Shown piece by piece: positions 19,595-36,441 of a stretch of 64,000 nt of DNA (within the stretch, counting starts at the first letter, position 1; every line of letters starts with the position of its first letter). Position numbers and translations under genes: made by a program. Below the pieces are notes generated by a model. It did no database searches, was not told the DNA's origin, and saw only the letters and a program-made list of their open reading frames with translations. The stretch comes from Dictyophora rubrovolvata (lineage: Eukaryota > Basidiomycota > Agaricomycetes > Phallales > Phallaceae), in the NCBI GenBank assembly GCA_029959195.1, contig CP114119.1:1612001-1676000 (forward strand), given 5' to 3'.

Positions 19595-20808
19595 TTAGGA
19601 AAGTCCCACCACCTCACTTCCGCCAACGACTTCCAAGACTTTCCAGTCTACGCCAACACCTTTCTCATTAAATATGCGTTCTGCGTCGTGCGCTATTCTT
19701 TCAAACCCTTCTGTCGCAAGCGCCAGAATAGTAGGACCGGCTCCGGAAAGACAAATTCCCAGCAGGCCTTTATGTGTTTGAGGTGTGATTATGGAAGTAA
19801 CCTCTGTCAAACCCGGGATCTAGATAAAATATGTTAGGAGATCAGATATGAATGCCAAGCTATGCTGCCTTTGCCATAGCATCATCCAAGACCACTCACT
19901 AGTGACTTTCTATATGGTTGATGTACTCTATCTTTCATAGCTTCGTATATTAATTCAGAATCAGGCGGGGATTGTCCAAGAGCGGTGGTTAAGACAGCCA
20001 ATCGCTGCATGTTGAAAACCTAGAGAAAAAGACAAGAAAAAGAGTAAGCCAATCCAAGAATGTAACACTTGACCGCACAAACCAGATCTTTTCGCGAGTA
20101 TGTGAGTGGAAGGACTTGTCTAGCTTTAGCGGTACTTAGTTCAAAACGAGGGATAATAGCCAAAGCTCGGATTTCCTTCGTCCATTTGAATCTCACGAAA
20201 TGTCCGATACCTAGCGGTGCTACGGGAGGATTCTTACCCCAATCCTCACCAGCATCTGGTGGATACTCTGGAAGAACTTCTGATAGAGGAACAGATGCAG
20301 CTTCCATTGCCGCGGGTTCCAGTTCGCGAAGATACGAGCCAACGAACCCGCCAACCAATGCAGCCGTCACATTGTCAGGATGTCTTTCGACCATCAATGC
20401 AAAATCAAGAAGACGGGATTGTGGAAGATTGAGCTTTCCGAGAGCGTTTGCCAATAAAACACCTGCTATCACAGCAGCACCAGAAGAACCTAAACCACGT
20501 CCGAAAGGAATCTCATTGTGAGCGTGTAAATGTAGTGCTGGAAGCTTTTGGATGCCGTGACATCTTAAGACATAAAGGGCAACACGAGTGGTGAGATTCT
20601 TGTATATATCAAGCGGAACGACGTCGGCGCCTTCGCCCGAATGTGTGATTGCAGACTTTGGAGGAATGGATGACGAGCCCGAGGGATATACATATACGGT
20701 AATAGTCAGTGTTAGATATAGAGACAAGGAGAGCCCGACGACATCAAACCCCGGGCCTATATTAGCACTTGTTGCGGGTACTTTGATAACGAACTTGGGG
20801 CTGGTCAT
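19595..20808 (-). CDS. THR1: Homoserine kinase (GHMP kinase family)
   Basis: Phosphorylates homoserine to O-phosphohomoserine in threonine biosynthesis. The start MTSPKFVIKVPATSANIGPG carries the GHMP substrate loop; the ATP-binding GHMP motif 2 is IPFGRGLGSSGAAVIAGVL; motif 3 is GICLSGAGPTILAL near the C-terminus. PDNVTAALVGGFVGSYL and IRALAIIPRFELSTAKAR are also typical. Two introns interrupt the 3' half, one after YSRKDL and one before the IPGLTEVTSI exon. An in-frame ATG at 20871 would add 21 residues; family members start close to FKI/FVI-VPATSAN, so 20808 is chosen. It is transcribed divergently from MED9. Confidence 0.92.
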
Positions 20809-20898
20809 CGGCAGTGACAGTGACTCAAGACTTGGCAGTCGGAGTTCAGCGTTCAACGACGTCGCATACACCGGACATTACATCGCAGGTCAACGTTG
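20809..20898. promoter_or_regulatory. Short divergent promoter THR1 / MED9 with TGACTCA
   Basis: Only 90 bp lie between the two start codons. An exact TGACTCA (Gcn4/Cpc1 consensus) is at 20821-20827, 13 bp from the chosen THR1 ATG. If THR1 starts at the upstream ATG 20871, this motif is coding and less likely to be regulatory. Confidence 0.4.
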
Positions 20899-21404: not shown

Positions 21405-24400
21405 TCACTGGCCACCAGCTGTTAAACAAACAGCCCTCATCGCCACTAAATTGGTGTCAGTTTTGGAGAATGCAAGCTCGACTGTAAACAAGACGTCGCT
21501 TCGGTCAACATTGAGATAGACGGGGAGTTCGACAAATGCGGTCCCGTCAATGGCCAGGTCACTCTGAGCTTGAACCCATCTGAGTTGCGATGGTCCGAGC
21601 CGAGTGGTTTCGCCGTCATTCAAAGAAAGTTGATTGCCAGATAATGCCGCTCCTTCCAACACAAGTCCTAAGAAAAATCTTGATCAAAGACAAGCTACGG
21701 GGAAATCAGTTCAGCTTCACACACCATCTAGAATGAACCCCTCTGGATCTTGAATCTGCTCCAAATCAAGTCTTAAGTGTAACGTTTCTAGGGACCACTT
21801 CTTGCGGTGGGCTACAGCTTGTCTAGTCGCAGTAATGTAAGCTTCAGGGAAAAATAAGCCACCCAACCAGACTTCGGTATCAGTGAATGAAGTCCATTGA
21901 GATATTCGTTCTAATTGCCCTAGCCGACGACTCAGGTTCGGGATCCATTGAGACACTGAGGTCGTTCTCGTGACTTTATATCTTCGCCAATGATCGGGGA
22001 TAGTACCTGGGGGAGACAGTCAATGACACGCTATTGAGTATATTCACAAGTCCGGGATAACAATACCTTTCATCAATTGTCCCATCAAGTTCCGGAGATG
22101 ATTGGTTTGTTTCAAAGCTCCTTCACAGACTTTGACAACGTCTGCCAAGTCTTTACGAACGCAAGTCAGTAGGTTCCGACCAAGTAAACCTTCTCTCATG
22201 AAGAATCTGAACAGTGGATCCCCGTTGTCACCATCCTGCTTTTGGAGAATATTTAAAGCCTGTGAAACCTTGTTAATTGTGTTTACTTGACAGAACTTTA
22301 CGGCCTTTATATTTTACCTCGGGTAGTTCTTTTAACCAGTCTTGACAATACTGTAGTAGGCTACGCATCCATGCAGGCTGTTGTGAACCGCCACCGGCCA
22401 CAGGTTTTCCGGAAGTATCATTCTCTTCATCGTCGACCAAAGCTCGCATTTTTCGAAGTTTTCCGAGAAGTAAATTGCCTCTGGAGATTGCGATCACTCT
22501 CTCTGCAGTAGGCGGTAAGCTTAACCACGAAGGTGGCTCCCGCTCAGGCAGTTTCTGAACCCAAGTTAAGAAATGCTCCAACTTAGTTCCTTCGGGTACA
22601 GTCACGACATCTTGTCCATCAATACGAGGAACGAGGTCGAAATCAACTTGATATGAATCAGGAGTGAACAGTCGGTCGACGAACGCATCCAAGACTTTCT
22701 GGTCGAAATCGCTATCGATTCGTCCTCCATAGACAGACTCTTTGACAAGTGTCCTAACGGCATCCCAAGGAATGGCAGCAGGATCAATGTTGGCACGCCC
22801 TTTTGCAACAGAATGCAACCACGTATCAATAGTATTAAAAGCAGCAGCCATATCAGAATCGTTGAAATCGTAGGTTTTGCTCCATCCAAGAGGGACATAT
22901 CTCAACCGTTCCTGTACGACGGCATGGAACCAAGCCAATACGAAGTACAACCGGAACTTTTCAGCCGGCCCTTGACTAAGGCGGTTAGGTGCTATGTTTC
23001 GTAGACTATCCTGCAAATTGGCTTTGATCCCAGGGGGCGGCTCATTCATAAAGATTCGCGATTGTCGTAGCAGATTGACTGGGATGACAGGATTGATCTC
23101 CATAGTCAGGAATACACGGAAGTTAGGATGAGGATTGATAGTCTGAAGACGTTTCTCGAGTTGACCCAACCACGATGGTGCGAGATGGACGTTCTTTAAT
23201 AGTACCCAAGTTCCTTGTCGGGCAGCGGTGGCAATGGCTTGATCAGCAAGCGCGAATCCTTCCTGAGAGCCCATAGCTACAGGAGTACACTTAGACCCTG
23301 TGTTTTTGACAAGGTTATCGACACGATAACTAGCATCGTAGCCAATCACGGAAACAAGAGCCAGCGGTGTAGTTGGCTGGACTTCGTGTTTGACAATTTC
23401 CTCTAAATTGTAATTCGGCTCATCCACGATATCATCTCCGAATACTACCTTAACAAAGATAGCTGTGGCTTGCAGCAGACGATCTGGACGTAAGCACTTT
23501 ACAACCGAAAGATTTCGAATAGAGCGGACGATATCTAAACCATTGTAAGAATCCAAAGAAAATATTTCGAGTTGAAAACCTTACCCGAAACACCAGTCCA
23601 TAAAGTGGGCACATTTTCTTCAGGACTTGATGATTCAATAACAGGTTTCCACTCGTCTTCATGCTCCGACAAATGCTTCGGTACGGTATTGAATATTGGA
23701 TTTCCAAAAAACATATGCAGACGCTTCTGTTGATCGATTGACAAGTAAGCCGCTTGGAATTCTGAGGATGTGCCTGCTCCATTGGAACCATCTCCACTTT
23801 CAAGAAGAAATTCGGTTTCCTCGGTGATTTCTTCGATGCCTCGCAGCTTAATTTGAGCGAGAAGAATGGCCAGCATGATATGATCTTGATGTAACAGGGC
23901 ACGCGATGTACGTTGGTACACCACAGTGAATAGGTCATCAAGAAGTATTTCCCGTCGTTGCCCAGGATCTTTAACATTCAAGAGATTTGGGTTTTGATGC
24001 AAAACATAATCAAATATGTCCAAGAAGAAACGAAGCGAAAACTGATAGAAGTGGTTGATCAAGTTCAGCTGCTCCAAGATAAAGAATATGGAACTGCATG
24101 CTTGAGCTAACGGAATATATTCCGCAGTAACACCTTCAACTTCTTTGATAACGATGTCGGTCTCCTCCACTTTCCGAGTGATTTCGGCCGCTTCGCGTTT
24201 AAGAGTCTCCAACGTATCTATGACTTTATCGTCATCGAGGATATTTCCTGTGGACTGATTCAAGGCTTGTAGTAGTAACTTCTCCAACGTCCGCAACCTC
24301 AGCTTGAACTCCCCTTGTATCTTCATCAGATCTGTCCGTTTTTGATCTGTCTCGGGACGTTCAACCTTCAAAACTTGATCAAGTGACTGGCTTTGTAAAC

Positions 24401-27400
24401 TGCTGCGAGTCATGGTGAAGTTGACAAACGTAACACGACTGCAAATATCTGGTGAGAATTCGACAGAAGGATCTCGGGTCGATAAGAACATGGTGAATGA
24501 AGGCGAGAAGTCGATGTCTTGATTTCCAAGGCGTATAAGGACACGTCCACCAGTTCGCCTGATTTCTTTGTTGAGGACGGCATTCAATATGGGATCCAAG
24601 CGTTCTACATCTTGAATCAAAAGTGCATTTCCAAAACGTAACGCACTTTCTAAAATTTTCAGGAAAGCCTCGTCAAGGAAGCTAGTGACCGTGATCTTTC
24701 GGTCTTTGTACTCATTGAGAAGGAACGTTGTAGCCTGCCCCGTGGGATCAATAATGAGAGGGTATCGACTGAATCGTTTCAGCATAATTGCATTCTCAGT
24801 ACAAAGAACGTCCGAAGGCAACGACTTTGACTGCCAGTTGAGGCGGTCATCAGGGGTGGAAAGATATTCGGTCAAAGAAAGCTCTTGTTTAAATTTGAGG
24901 TTAGCATCGGTCAAATGAGCTGTCCATTCGTGCCACATATTCTCGCGATATTGCTGATCGAAGAATCCACCATAGGCTATGAAAGCCGCAGAAAGTAAAA
25001 CGTCTCCAACGATGGTGCTCATTTCTGTTTCGAAAGTACGACTGCCAGCTTCCCATCGAGCACGTTCTGAAGACAAGGATTCTAGCAGCTTTAAACTACG
25101 GTCAACTTTGCTCTGAACGCGTTCCATTTCCGCTTTTATGGCTTGGGTCTCGCTTATCAACAAGGCGTATTCTTCCTTATATCTTCCAATGCTGGCTTCC
25201 AACTCCGCAATCATTTCCACCATAGTCGCTGCTTGCTTCTTGGTCTGCTCAGCTTGATTCTCTAGCGACTGGACTTCATTCCGAAGCGGGTCGACCCTTT
25301 CCAAAATCTCGGAGTAGTTGATTTGAGCAATGACCCATTTGACGACAGGACCGCAGGCTTTACTAGCATGATTCACAACCTCGTAATTATAAGAGGGACG
25401 ACTAAGATATTCCTTCTTCATAAATTCTCGAAGTTGTTTTGTGAGCTGACGGTTTGTATCAAACCCTAATATCCTCTGCTGAAAATTGTCTTGACGAATG
25501 ATGCCTTGAACAGTACGCCAGCTGTCAACCTTGTGGCCAAGAATCGTACAGGCAGATTCCATGGCAAGCTTTACTGCCTCTGGAGGATTACCCATAGCCC
25601 GAACTTCTTGCATTTGATTACGTCTGATGTTGTTGACGGCGGCTTGAGCTTCCATAACGGCTGGTTCAGCATTAGCTAAATCCGCCAATACAATAGCACG
25701 CCTTTGCTCAATATTTTTGTCTTGTTCGGCTAGAGCGGCCTGAATTTCTATGGAAGCTGCTTTCTTATGTTCTGCTTCCTGTTGATCCGCCACCATCCGT
25801 CTGAGCTTCTCGTTTGCCTCCGCATCTTTCATTTCAAGCTGCTTGCGCTTCATAGCCAGACTAGCACGCAATTCCTCCACTTGAGTCACAGTGTCCCGAA
25901 GCTTGTCCAAACCAACATGTAGATGCCGTTGTTGTTCCTCTAACTCATCTCGTTTTTCTGTGTACAAATGCACATAGTGATGAAGGCTATACACAATGTT
26001 AAGTAACGGTCTTCAGTGATACAATTGATGGACATACAAATCCAGATAGTGCCGCGGAGTGACGTAGTTATATCTCCCCTGTCGTCGACTTAGTCGACTA
26101 TTGAAATGGTGCATTGTTTGGTGAATATGCACGAAGGCATTAACAACACCCGTACGATGGGTAGGAGGCATATCTAAATGACGGTAAGCTATAGGAAAGT
26201 GCATCGGCGGGATATAAGAGGGAAGATCCAAATCAAGCGTCCTGGTGAATTCCATTCCTACTTGATAGAAGGCTTGATCATTCCAATCACCGAACCAGTC
26301 AAGAACACATCGATTGAAAAGAGCCGGGGAAGTAGCGGCACGAGAAGCAAGTCCGTTTTCAGGGGGGTTCATAGTGAAAACAACGTGAAGGTTTTTGGCG
26401 ACTTGTTGAGTGAACCATCGATAAAGTTCTTCGTGAGAATCAAGCATGAGACCGTCCCGCTGGGATCCTTCTTTACATGCTGTCATCAGGGCCGAATATT
26501 CGTCCCCTTCAAACAGACCAGGTACTTCAGCATTTGCCAGAAGAGTGTTCATACGCTCCAAGAATCCGGAGTCTAAAACATTGGATTCGTCCATTATGAA
26601 ACAGATTTTTTCACCCTTAGTTCCTGATCGACGAAGAACAGTACGTAAATCATCATCAAAATCATCTCCAGTGTACTTGTTAGAAACTTTGATTTGAAAG
26701 ACATTTAAACCGTTCATCCAAGCAACAAAGCGAGACAAAGTTGTCTGAAAGCATTCAGGCAAAACTTAAGTGATATACAATGGACACTTACTTTGCCACT
26801 CCCGCTCACTCCGATCAGCAGTAAATGACCTTGGATTTGACGGAAAACTCTATCTATGCGGAGAACGTGATCCAAAACATCGTTGAAGAGAACCAAGGGA
26901 ACGTCAAGTTCTTCTTCGTGGAAAACACGAAGCCGAGCCTTAGTATAGTCTCGCAACTGTTCACGATCCACAGGTATATAATTCTTAGAAGTCCAGTTTG
27001 AAAAGAGTATCGGTCTGTTTAGTGCTTCCTCGCAATTAGTATTTGGGAAATTTTCCATGGCCGTAGAATCAACATTCTCATCTGTCCATTGTTTTTCTTC
27101 TTCGGTTACAAGACGATCTTGGAAGAGTCGTAGAGCTTCGTGGCCCCAGACTCGTATAAGGCCCTCCACAGATAAGGAATCCAAGGGTTTAATGGCTTCG
27201 TAAATACCGCGGACCCACCTCGTCAATTCACGAGGACTATAAACGTAATGCGCTTGAATGTCGCTCGTAAACCGCTTTTGTGAGGCCAGATAAAATGAGA
27301 CCATAGCATCCGTTAACGGTTCTGCATAAGCACGCAGATTCGGTACAACTTTGAGCATCGCTCGATTGTATGTACCATATATTTGTTTCAGCGAAAGCTC

Positions 27401-30400
27401 TCCTGGATAATCGACCATAATCAAGGGTGAGTGTCGCAAGAATCGATGACTCAACGGCACCCGACCGGGATCTGTAGGAGGATTACAAGCCCCAACAAAT
27501 TGGATTCTCTCCAAATTTACCCATGCCATATCTGTCGGTCTGTAATAGCCACCACATTCGACTAGTTGGCGCAGAAATGATATAACACGTTGAGTGCCAT
27601 ATTTATCGGGGGCTGGAAGATTGATTTCATCGCAGAACAAAACAAGCCATCGTCCTATTTGCACTGGTGAAAGAACGACGCCATTAGGTGTTTTACGATA
27701 CTCGCAATATTGTTCAAATGTCTTCATGATCAACTCCGGAGTAGTGGCACTGGAAAAGTTCAATCCAACTACCTCCATATCTGGCAGCTTTCTCAGGGCG
27801 CTAAATAATGTCATTGTTTTCCCGGAACCAGGAGGCCCGCAGAGCATTAACGGTTTGTGTTCTGATAGCCACGAGTATAGAACCTCTTCGTGTCTAAGGG
27901 TATCCACTGTTGGAACAACGACATCCGAAGCCGTAACCGCATGGGCCTCGATTTCTATTGCAGGGACTTTAGATTGCCACGGAACCCATTCGTCTGGATT
28001 TACGGAAACGTCGTAGTCCAACAAGGATAAATTAGCGGTGGTCAATGGCACATCTATTCCACTCCTACTGGATAGAAAATTGCCCAATTCAGCACGTGCA
28101 TCAAGTTTGCAATCACCGGAAAAAGCCCAAATTATATTGAGTAGCAATCGCCTTGTTACGTACTGCTCCATTCGATCGTTGGAAAGGGGGAAGTCGGGAT
28201 GTTGATTATTGTAATCAATAATGTTACGTACTGTTTTGTTGACCAATGAGAAAAGAGTATTGAGGGCGCGAGTAGTCGTGAAGTCCATTATGTGCTCGAA
28301 GGACTCGACGTGTTGCAAAGCGGCGCTGATAAGACCGTCCGATGTGAAATAAGGCTCGAGCATGCCTGCAACGTGTTGCTGAATTTCGAGGTTGGGAAGA
28401 GATATATTGGGGACGGAAATGCCTGAACGACGAGTGACATTGTCAATCAATTCTTCATCATCCGCATCTAACGTAACGGCAGCCAATGTATCCAAATAGT
28501 TCCGATATATCATCGAAGGGTCAATAACATCGTCGCTGAACCAAATCATTCCACAACGACTGACTGTAGCGAGCGTAGCATACTTCAGGTGTTCAACCTC
28601 GAACATTATGCGAACATTAGAAGGAAGGTTTAATCTTTCTCCGTTTGGTAGCGTAAGAAGTTTGTTATCGTCGAGCACACTGCACACGACAAATAAGAGA
28701 CAAGCATTCAAGTGCAGATACTTAACTAACCTATTCAAATTCTCAACCCATTCAGGATCCACATCACCGTCAAATACGATCCAATGACGCTTGCTGCTTT
28801 CCCCACGAACGTCGTCTACAATTTTTCTCAATATATGCGTGAATAAACCGTCGTTCCATTCCCGCGTAGTAGAATCCAAAGTTCCGTAAAGGGCATCTTT
28901 ATGCATTGCTTTCGGATCAATGACGTAGAAAACCCCCTCTGTACCGTCCAAGTTTTCCAAAGCTTTAAGGAGCACCTGCCAGGCATTGGTCTTTCCGGTA
29001 CCAGATGGTCCAACCATCATTAATCCATGTTGGATTTTTTGAATCTGATAAAGTTGCAAAATTTTGGCTACCCAACCTTCACCGGGCACCAGCCGTCGCT
29101 GTTTACAAACCTGAATAATTTGCTTGTGTAAAGCATCGAGGTCAACAGGTACATAATCAACACCTGGAAAAACATCGGCGAGAAGGCTGAGGAATCGTCA
29201 GCGCATTACTATGTATCGAATTCGATCTTCAAATACTGACCTTGTCAAAAGAGGTACATCGTCAGCAACTAGTTTTGGAACAATAGTTTCTGTAACACTT
29301 TGAATGAGAATGACTTGTTCCGAAGCCGCATCTGATAGACCTTCAGTCGGAAGGTCTGAGTCAATGGTTGATGTTCGCAGCGATTGTAGACGTTCCCGTT
29401 TGAGAATACCAGCACTTGCCAAGACAGCCTTGAGAGCACGCAAACCAAAATCATAATGTGGTTGCGGCGATAATTGTTCTGAACATAGATTAAAGAAGGG
29501 AACTATCTTTGAAGCCAAGATCTCGGCAGTACGGAACCCTTGAGAAAACAACATAACCTGGGCAATTAACTCTCTATCCGGACGGGTCATTGCCATTCTA
29601 TATGATCATCAGTATCTATAAAAACATAGGGAATGCCCACATACGGCCGGAATAATTTCGTAAGATTTGGGGGGAGTGTAGAGCGACCGGCATAATTAGG
29701 ATTTGTAGTGATAAAGATACCTGTAAAATAAAATTGTCGCTCGACGAATAGCAAATAGTCAAATTATCATACGAACCAACGTTTGGGTTGATTTTCAGAC
29801 TTTTCCCTACAAGTTCTATCTCTGCATTGGGATTTTGGGCTAGCGAGGCCAAACCCTGCTGAATGCTTTGTACTTGTTGAGAAACTGCACTTAGAATCCG
29901 TTCTTCTAAACGATTGAATTCATCAAAGCATCCCCAAGCCCCAACTTGACATAAGCCAACAAAAATGCGACCCATTGCCTGAAAATCAAATGTTTCATCG
30001 CAGCAAAATACTAGGACGAAGCGACCAAGCTGCACTCCAAGAGCCTTGACCGACTCCGTTTTACCTATAATATGAAATGAGGTGAGGACAATTATTTGAC
30101 TGAAGACAATGCTTACCAGTTCCAGCAGGACCGAAGGGAGAACCACCAAGCTGAGTGTCCAGCGCCTGAGTTAACGTAAGATAGCACCTATCAGTCAAAG
30201 GTGTCTGGACTAATCTATCCGGTACTCCCAGGTATTCCCATCCGTACGAAAATTCAGCATTGGCTAAACGAATCTTTAGTCTGTCCAGGGGGTTTTCAGC
30301 TTTGCCATCCAAATTGAGATAAAATCTCATCTGATACAACCAGTGGAAAGCTCTGTTACTATGAACCCCTTGGGAAATAAGGTTCCGTGTTACGTCCCTT

Positions 30401-32794
30401 TGATGGACCAGCTCTGTGATTAGATGCTCGCATTTGCGCCTGGAAGTTGGAACAAGTTCAGTTAAAACAACATCAGCTAATAGATCTAAGCCTCTCCGAA
30501 TCATGTTTAACGTAGCGTCCAATGATTGAGAGTTCTCGAGCGAATTCTCGACGGCGGAAGTCCAGGCTACTTGTATGGCAAGCGAAACTAATTGAGCGGG
30601 ATATTTCTCTATCCATGGCAGAAATAGGTCCAATGTAAGCGTAGGGCCAGTCGCATAGAACTCTTGAAGTTCCGAAACGGCTTCACACAAAAGATGAGCT
30701 AGAGATAGTCGCATCTCGGACTCTACCTTCGTGAGCCAGTCATTGATTTTCGGGAACTCTTGAAGAAGTATGGCATTTTTGAACATCACTTCCTCTCCTT
30801 CTCGAGAAGCCATTCCACGTATTTCCGTCAATTCTTCGTCGAGCTGCAGAGTGGATATCCCAGCAAACATCTTCTTCAGATGTTTCATGATCCGAAGTAT
30901 GTCCTTACTGTTGCCTATTATTTCGAGAAGATCTTCATCACCGACGAAATAAAACCGTGGAAATGATGAACGTTCGCGTTCCAAATATTCCCCCAAGGCC
31001 TTTTGAATCTTGCCTAGTAGGTCTGCTAACCGTTCCAAGCTTTTCTGAATACCAGGTATATTCATGACGTCGATCACGAAAGGTGACTTATAGACCTTTT
31101 TCATTACTGTGAGAAACTCTGCGTTTATATTCGAAAAACGAGCTGTTTCAACAGGGAGCAAGTGTTTAATGTCGGCGCTTCCAGAAAATATTCCTTCTAG
31201 GTATACCCATTGTCGTTGGACGTCAATCCATACATCTAAGGGCAATTAACTTTCGTCACACATAATACAAACGGGTCTTACCGAATAAAACATGAATGCG
31301 ATTTAACTTTTCCTCCCATGAACTTGCCTACAAAAAAACTTTGATGAGTCTTAGCTCCATACGGAAGACTGGCAGCTTACTTCTTCTTCAAATACTGAAG
31401 ACAGAGTGTCAAAATTAATACATATGGGCCAGCAATCCATTTCGTACCTTTGTAATAAGGAGATAGCTTCATGGCGACAAGCGAATTCAGGTTTTCACTG
31501 CATTTCGCAAATAATTCATCCCAGCTCCTATAAACATAACCAGTTAATTCCAACTTTATTATAAAAAAAACACCTTCATACAGACCTTATAAGGCGGCAT
31601 TTATTCTGATAATTTACCAGATCTAGTGTATAATTGGACCAAATCTCCTTGACCTGTTTGATGTATTCTTCCAAGCCCATCTGTAAATAATATTAGTCAG
31701 TTTCGAATGTAAGCACGCAAGATTACATACTTCTCCCTGAGCTTGCACGATAATCTCTTTTATCAGTGTTTCGTTCCTCTTTAGGTCTAAATCATACACA
31801 TGCCCGAGACTCATCCTTAAGAAACATGTAACGATAAATCATATTTGATGGAAATGAACACTTACTGGGTTAGTACGATATTAGCTGGGACGTGCAATAC
31901 CTTGAATAGTTGTTTCCAGTGCCGCTCTTTCATGGCTTCTGACTTCAGCTCCGTAATAAGCACATTAGACTTCAAAAGGCTGCTTAAAGTATCTTGAATA
32001 TATTCGTAGGCTGCGTATTGCCTCATTCGAGTCGGCATTTCTTTGGTGCTGGATATTAGGGAATTAATGCTTTGCCTTAGCTTTCTTGGTTGCGCTGTAG
32101 CCCACGGCGATTCTCTAAGATCATTTATTTGACTCCATATTCCAGATAAAGCGGTCCAAACTGCTTTCAAGTCTTTGAGTTCTTCAAATACAGGATCCAG
32201 GCGGGTGTGTCGAACAAGCTCTAAATCAAGAGCCTCCTTCGCGCGACAAATAAGATTGTATTCCTCTTGGACCCGTGTCAATTTGTTTTCGAAAGCACTG
32301 ATGGCATTTAAGGCAGTATCTGCGCGCATATTGCCTTGGACAGGACGCGTTTGCTCCCACTCTGTAAGTATGTCGCTTATCTTGTTTTCGACTATCTTGT
32401 CTTCAGCCGTCACTTTAAGCTGAAGACCAGCTAAGGGAAAAGATTAGACAATAAGACCTTGGACCTTGAAAGCAACATAAATCATGTACCTAGCTGTTCT
32501 TGAATAGAGTCGCTCTTTCGTTTCAGTATTTCATTATACGCGCTCCATTCACCCCTCAGCTGATCACTATAAAGCCAATCTTCCGGAAATTGGTATCTGA
32601 AACGCTCCAAAGTCTTCTCTCCACTTGCGCAAAGATCTATCATAGGACCCCACACTTTGGTTTTGCGCTTGAGGTCCTGTACAAACGTAATGAAGGTAAC
32701 AGCAGCCGCTGTCGACGAATTCGACGAAGTCAAAAGAGCCTGATATGTTTCAGCTAGATTTATAGAATTAAATACCGTATGACTTTACCTCCAT
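21405..32794 (-). CDS. dhc2: Cytoplasmic dynein heavy chain, motor half (split gene, dhc2-type)
   Basis: Minus-end microtubule motor, about 3,400-3,500 residues over some 15-20 exons. It opens [20 protein letters not shown], which corresponds to a position deep inside ordinary heavy chains, so the dimerising, intermediate-chain-binding tail is absent. Then follow the linker, AAA1 (GPAGTGKTES, CFDEFN), AAA2 ([13 protein letters not shown]), AAA3 ([20 protein letters not shown]), AAA4 ([17 protein letters not shown]), a coiled-coil stalk flanking the microtubule-binding tip, AAA5 (degenerate IIDPTGQAT), AAA6 and the C-terminal domain with [18 protein letters not shown]. The first coding exon is only ATGGAG (32789-32794); an in-frame stop sits at 32816-32818 and SmE starts 163 bp away, leaving no room for a tail. 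Agaricomycetes are known to encode tail (dhc1) and motor (dhc2) separately; this matches dhc2. Confidence 0.9.
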
Positions 32795-32957
32795 TTCAGA
32801 ATAGTATACGGTGGCTCAGATGAAAACTCTAGTCCATGGACTGCGTCACGACCCGTACAACCGCAGCTGGGTTTGAAAACGCGTTACCACCGTCCCTCTA
32901 CAGCGTTTTACTCAAAAAAAATCTTTCTACAGCTTGTTAATCACTAAGTAGTACATC
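32795..32957. promoter_or_regulatory. Divergent promoter dynein motor gene / SmE
   Basis: 163 bp shared by two head-to-head genes. It holds an in-frame stop for the dynein frame (32816-32818), showing that the dynein frame does not run on upstream. No specific regulator motif recognised. Confidence 0.5.
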
Positions 32958-33373
32958 ATGTCTGGCCGACAACAACGTGTAATGGTTCAACCCATTAATG
33001 TTATTTTCAAAAATCTCCAACAGGTATGAAACATTCTGCGGCTGGATATCTTTCTCAAGGCTAAGCGCAAGAATAGCGGAATAAAATATCAGTTTGGCTA
33101 TATGACAATGTCGATATGCGTATAGAGGGAATTATAACCGTACGTTTATAACCTGTAGACCCGGAATTTCAGTTACAGTTTTATTCTAGGGATTCGACGA
33201 GTTTATGAACCTGGTAATTGACGATGCTGAGGAAGTTTATGTCAAAGAAACTCATTCACGATCGAAATTAGGTCAGATTTAGCAACTATCCTGATAAATA
33301 ATTACTCAGTGCAATAATAGGTCGAATTCTTCTGAAAGGCGACAATATAACACTGATTCAACAACTCCCATGA
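32958..33373 (+). CDS. Small nuclear ribonucleoprotein E (SmE)
   Basis: Member of the heptameric Sm ring on U1, U2, U4 and U5 snRNAs. Four exons, 32958-33023, 33077-33139, 33190-33271 and 33321-33373, give 87 residues, the normal size, with every junction in phase. The N-terminus [20 protein letters not shown] is typical of SmE. Sm1 is formed by [20 protein letters not shown] with [12 protein letters not shown]; Sm2 is [14 protein letters not shown]. The stop lies only 16 bp from the stop of the ABC transporter on the other strand, so the two mRNAs must overlap at their 3' ends. Confidence 0.96.
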
Positions 33374-33389
33374 TACTGTACTTATTCAC

Positions 33390-36441
<3,052 letters not shown>

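Follow-up and report, generated by a model that had tools for sequence, protein, structure and literature searches.

Dynein is the motor protein that carries cargo along the tracks of the cell. In the agaricomycete Schizophyllum commune two genes of the same scaffold, dhc1 (1180 amino acids) and dhc2 (3450 amino acids), with 413 kb between them, encode the cytoplasmic dynein heavy chain (Brunsch et al. 2015, PMC4540427). The dhc1/dhc2 split is conserved in Agaricomycetes and Dacrymycetes, and independent heavy chain splits occur in Ustilaginomycotina and Wallemiomycetes (PMC4540427). The agaricomycete split is described as a cut without an added interaction domain and with potential co-localisation of the products; the distance between the two genes is given as 'up to 500 kb' overall, and dhc2 as linked to matA (PMC4540427). 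In Ustilago maydis the heavy chain is likewise divided between two genes, dyn1 and dyn2, whose products are reported to belong to one complex in vivo (Straube et al. 2001, as cited in PMC4540427). Here we analyse a 64,000-nucleotide stretch of Dictyophora rubrovolvata DNA (assembly GCA_029959195.1, contig CP114119.1, positions 1,612,001 to 1,676,000, hereafter the window), in which an initial annotation had recognised a dynein heavy chain gene limited to the motor half and had proposed that it fits the agaricomycete pattern. This proposal is supported by a tail-only gene, by the position of the cut, by searches with four families that found no second heavy chain gene and by the location of both halves on one contig. 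With a probability of about 0.8, the gene is dhc2, the motor gene of an agaricomycete two-gene cytoplasmic dynein-1 heavy chain, with dhc1 as its partner and with products that would be translated separately and rejoined non-covalently.

The dhc2 gene extends from position 32794 to position 21405 of the window on the minus strand (C3:1633405-1644794, C3 being the contig of the window) and comprises 20 predicted exons encoding 3465 amino acids; for this gene and for dhc1, all exon borders are predicted from the sequence. The joined exons form a single open frame with four Walker A motifs (residues 749, 1053, 1427 and 1769), and the 19 introns measure 46-60 nt (median 51). A Pfam scan of 9 of the 20 exons gave, in the expected order, DHC_N2 (linker), AAA_6, AAA_5, AAA_7, AAA_8, the microtubule-binding stalk (MT), AAA_9, Dynein_heavy, AAA_lid_11 and Dynein_C, with matches far above chance. 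DHC_N2 is matched by exon 3 (2.4e-22) and by exon 9 (1.8e-68), and the two matches span a linker region at 30682-32194, according to coordinates computed from the exon translations. Exon 16 (23586-25985) carries the stalk and AAA_9 (3e-38 and 1.1e-77), and exons 17-20 (21405-23534) carry the AAA6 P-loop region (Dynein_heavy), AAA_lid_11 and the C-terminal domain (Dynein_C), all on the minus strand. The linker, AAA modules, stalk and C-terminal domain expected of a cytoplasmic dynein motor are recovered by Pfam and by the Walker A motifs. Separately, intron 17 has an alternative 3' splice site, exon 18 beginning either at 22268 or nine bases further on.

The first coding exon of dhc2 consists of only 6 nt (ATGGAG, Met-Glu; 32789-32794, minus strand, with the ATG at 32794-32792). 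It is followed by a 49-nt intron of phase 0 (GTAAAG...TATCAG; 32740-32788), whose length falls within the range of the other dhc2 introns, and by exon 2 (32490-32739), which begins at the split point and aligns to the human heavy chain from residue 1160. Such a small exon is needed because reading through intron 1 leads to a stop following MEVKSYGI, the frame of exon 2 is open for 15 codons upstream without any Met, and no further Met is reached before residue 35, within the conserved region. The 6-nt exon of the initial annotation is therefore retained, there being no other plausible ATG start, and the in-frame stop that it placed 24 nt upstream is present in the sequence as a TGA (32818-32816). 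Further upstream, a two-codon open reading frame (ATG GAC TAG; 32829-32837, minus strand) starts 43 nt ahead of the dhc2 ATG. If the leader extends that far, this frame could possibly serve in translation control of dhc2.

A genome search for a tail-only DHC_N1 gene, as suggested in the initial annotation, succeeded. The assembly searched comprises 28.2 Mb in 11 contigs, and only the best candidates were scored. All three DHC_N1 matches fall in one gene, dhc1, on the same contig and strand as dhc2 and 516063 bases away from it (C3:1112972-1117341, minus strand; 13 predicted exons, 1236 amino acids, DHC_N1 at residues 312-871). Residues 98-1231 of Dhc1 align to residues 25-1159 of the human dynein-1 heavy chain. 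In the gene model the protein ends ...KARNDLEHQSIEGLIRR-stop, at C3:1112972; this end enters the evidence for the two-gene heavy chain as ...RNDLEHQSIEGLIRR-stop. As a separate observation, dhc1 intron 3 (L004:5986-6042, minus strand, L004 being the 10-kb region around dhc1) is modelled as the sole GC-AG intron of the gene (GCAAGT...GTCCAG); by reading, a GT donor four bases on would throw the following exon out of frame.

Dhc2 matches the human dynein-1 heavy chain with an E value of 3.1e-206 when its first 510 residues are used as the query, residues 9-509 corresponding to human 1160-1663; the remainder was judged by the Pfam scan. The aligned part of Dhc1 therefore ends at human residue 1159 and that of Dhc2 starts at 1160, with neither gap nor overlap. 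Residues 9-301 of Dhc2 correspond to human 1160-1455, and human residue 1455 is the end of a solved human tail construct (6f38). From this alignment, Dhc2 retains some 290-300 residues at the end of the tail nearest the motor, i.e. the neck (Dhc2 residues 1-301; window 31734-32794, minus strand), and the missing part is human 1-1159. The initial annotation had stated that none of the roughly 1,000-residue tail is present: this holds for human 1-1159, and has to be corrected for the last 300 or so residues of the tail, which are kept.

At the cut, 5 residues of Dhc1 and 8 of Dhc2 lie outside the alignment. That the two halves are ligated or clamped by a split intein, or by some other additional domain, has nothing in its favour; this explanation was rejected on the aligned ends of the predicted proteins and deserves practically no credence. 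With no such element at the cut, non-covalent rejoining by helix packing would be the most likely arrangement. The stretches next to the cut are well conserved: identity to the human chain, counted in 40-residue blocks, is 45% and 55% in the last two of the Dhc1 side and 48% and 52% in the first two of the Dhc2 side. Elsewhere in the compared stretch (human 951-1460), ten further blocks give values between 22% (a 9-residue block) and 60%, so that the cut does not lie in a relaxed region. This conservation would fit an interface that is still under selection. Single-sequence structure prediction of the last dhc1 exon (140 residues) gave a long helix reaching residue 130 and a short one at residues 134-138, and in dhc2 exon 2 a helix starts at exon residue 7. 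Because these predicted helices end before the cut and begin just after it, the cut, which is in the part of the tail nearest the motor, probably falls between helices.

The junction could also be bridged at the level of RNA, trans-splicing joining the dhc1 and dhc2 messages into one that encodes a full-length heavy chain. Intron 1 of dhc2 does supply an acceptor exactly at the junction. However, the GT beside the conserved SIEG of dhc1 (GAAG|GTCTC) would make a poor donor site and is, by reading, of phase 1, to be joined to a dhc2 acceptor of phase 0; moreover, a separate start codon is present in dhc2 and a separate stop codon in dhc1. We know of no trans-splicing of such kind in these fungi. 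Judged on donor and phase, again by reading, this explanation is very improbable.

The initial annotation had also considered that a second full-length heavy chain gene might exist, of which dhc2 would be a truncated paralogue. Four Pfam families (DHC_N1, DHC_N2, AAA_6 and Dynein_C) were therefore followed through the 28.2-Mb assembly, and no second heavy chain gene was found by these searches. All three DHC_N2 matches, one of them below cut-off, and both Dynein_C matches lie in dhc2. The same is true for four of the five AAA_6 matches; the fifth, on C9, is below cut-off, and at that level 3 of 14 control genomes give AAA_6 matches too. Every above-cut-off match to the four families falls in dhc1 or dhc2, and a second full-length heavy chain was thus not found in this assembly. 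The truncated paralogue, for which nothing was found in favour, was consequently rejected on these four family searches, and we regard its probability as negligible. Remnants of a duplication near the cut ends were not found either: tblastn gave no Dhc1 remnant in the 64-kb window and, at E <= 1, no remnant of Dhc2 residues 1-450 near dhc1 (L004, which includes 2.97 kb downstream of dhc1). Two weak tblastn matches in other places look like chance and were disregarded: one to Dhc2 232-262 on the other strand within dhc2 (E 0.54), the other to Dhc1 1007-1044 in sequence upstream of dhc1 (E 0.17).

The cut is identical, between SIEG and SST(A)..., here and in Table 3 of PMC4540427, where Dhc1 ends with ...RNDLEHQSIEG plus a few residues and Dhc2 begins with ME... 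in 9 of 11 rows. The alignment of the split point with other basidiomycete Dhc2 proteins, proposed in the initial annotation, thus gives agreement with the published rows. The Dhc2 start resembles that of Wolfiporia cocos, and the Dhc1 end reads SIEGLIRR, whereas 6 of the 11 rows have the longer SIEGLVGAPRRF. These ends suggest how the split could have arisen. Tentatively, the heavy chain may have been cut inside an ancestral intron, the ATGGAG exon being a conserved scar of this event: a new promoter and a two-codon exon would have been spliced to the old acceptor, and the tail gene would read a few codons into the old intron. These read-on codons would be GLIRR here and GLVGAPRRF in the 6 published rows. 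The ME start shared by the 9 Dhc2 rows argues for such an origin, as does the row of Coprinopsis cinerea (MEVRPNTIQ...), which is otherwise unlike the family and looks like read-through of an ATGGAG|GT intron. Because of this resemblance to an unspliced start, the published C. cinerea start may be a gene-model error. On the other side, S. commune starts with MPQA and Phanerochaete chrysosporium with MSME, and the row of F. mediterranea (MEVRLEVAFASPNSS) is too short for read-through of a whole intron (all PMC4540427, Table 3). On balance we consider a cut inside an intron possible, with odds clearly short of even. If it were true, the cut would have been tolerated because it fell between helices, dynein rejoining by itself from the outset. 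The two-codon exon 1 may be of use in dating and explaining the split.

In the two-gene heavy chain that we favour, Dhc1 would supply the tail, dimerisation and the expected sites for the intermediate and light intermediate chains, and Dhc2 would supply the motor. The two proteins would be translated separately and then rejoin non-covalently, held to each other by helices packed on either side of the missing peptide bond. Bracing may come from adjacent subunits, among which the light intermediate chain is a candidate: in human dynein it binds heavy chain bundles 6-7, and it and the intermediate chain enclose the heavy chain between them (PMC5473941, PMC10886578). Each Dhc1 dimer would then bear two Dhc2 motors and act as an ordinary dynein. 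Genes for dynactin p150 and LC8 were detected in the genome. The initial annotation had described the rejoining of the two chains as poorly understood, and the same question is left open in PMC4540427. Among the titles and openings of abstracts listed from the later literature, none deals with the rejoining of the halves or with the 6-nt exon; PMC8950801 cites PMC4540427.

Several observations weigh against this reading. The binding of Dhc1 to Dhc2 is something we infer from the sequences of the two proteins. The helix predictions are weak, with a mean predicted local distance difference test score (pLDDT) of 46 for the dhc1 exon and 64 for dhc2 exon 2, and below 50 at both cut ends; in addition, the further short Dhc1 helix occupies exon residues 134-138 of 140, close to the cut. 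The first 97 residues of Dhc1 have no alignment to the human chain. As to bracing, the residues at which each of the nine bundles of the tail begins and ends, and hence the bundle to which human 1159/1160 belongs, were not found in the passages of PMC5473941, PMC6733598 and PMC10886578 consulted, and a first look through the genome for the light intermediate chain family (DLIC) yielded no match, by which its absence is not shown. The 516-kb gap between the genes exceeds the 413 kb of S. commune and lies slightly above the published 'up to 500 kb' (PMC4540427). Finally, deletion of dhc2 in S. commune blocks nuclear acceptance in mating, whereas mating is normal in the strain deleted for dhc1 (PMC4540427).

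Because these deletion phenotypes differ, Dhc2 may also act without Dhc1. In that case the jobs of the two proteins would be partly separate: in addition to its part in a common complex, the motor half would drive nuclear migration with other partners and without the Dhc1 tail, as the authors of the S. commune study themselves propose (PMC4540427). Their observation comes from a single dhc1 deletion strain. In D. rubrovolvata, the predicted frame of the tail gene is intact, conservation on both sides of the cut equals that of much of the adjoining sequence, and the 8 extra residues at the Dhc2 N-terminus hold no alternative dimerisation domain. Separate jobs alongside a shared complex are possible, and we rate this explanation as unlikely.

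As annotated initially, a gene for an SmE-like protein is the divergent neighbour of dhc2: it starts at 32958 on the plus strand and encodes an LSM domain (1.2e-16). The 163 nt between the two ATGs (32795-32957) contain the in-frame TGA and presumably the promoter(s). Past SmE, an exon at 33636-33893 (minus strand), the single open reading frame scanned there, shows similarity to TIGR00954 (peroxisomal long-chain fatty acyl ABC transporter) at 1.3e-17, which is below the cut-off set for the whole protein. The gene 3' of dhc2 (window 20020-20877, minus strand) is a homoserine kinase (TIGR00191, 1.8e-61, above cut-off), and the one 3' of dhc1 (L004:1809-2828, plus strand) is homoserine O-acetyltransferase-like (TIGR01392, 1.6e-79, below the curated cut-off). 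That two homoserine-branch enzymes lie one by each dynein half is probably a coincidence.

The MIP gene flanks matA. Three of the seven Peptidase_M3 matches form a MIP-like gene starting at C3:2058662, 414 kb from dhc2, and the other four form a second gene, on C4. Four of the five Homeobox_KN matches lie at C3:2063941-2114350, 419 kb from dhc2, and the fifth on C7. The Mating_C family had no match in the genome at first look, which does not show its absence; the label 'matA-like' for this locus therefore rests on position and domain. So labelled, the linkage of dhc2 to the locus resembles that reported for Agaricomycetes (PMC4540427). The homeodomain matches on C3 form two clusters of two, about 46 kb apart, and perhaps represent a matA locus with two sub-loci.

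Compared with S. commune, both genes lie on one contig or scaffold and lack an added domain in the two species, and the proteins are of similar size, with 1236 and 3465 amino acids here and 1180 and 3450 there. In S. commune dhc1 and dhc2 are on opposite strands, whereas here they share one, and 12 and 19 introns are predicted here versus 9 and 16 in S. commune (PMC4540427). The split of U. maydis differs, as stated in the initial annotation: it is an independent event with a cut within the fourth AAA module (PMC4540427), whereas in D. rubrovolvata the AAA modules are in one protein and the AAA_8 matches run across exons 14 and 15 of dhc2. Human DYNC1H1 is one chain, with the same domain order as Dhc1 and Dhc2 laid end to end. 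A force-bearing motor in two pieces is a test of how much of the dynein tail must be covalent, and this locus makes one question easy to pose: what bears the load across the cut. The dhc1/dhc2 arrangement is already published, and the locus is a further clear example of it rather than a new phenomenon, adding a clean case in which both genes are mapped, each is found once, and the place where their products meet on the human heavy chain is located exactly.

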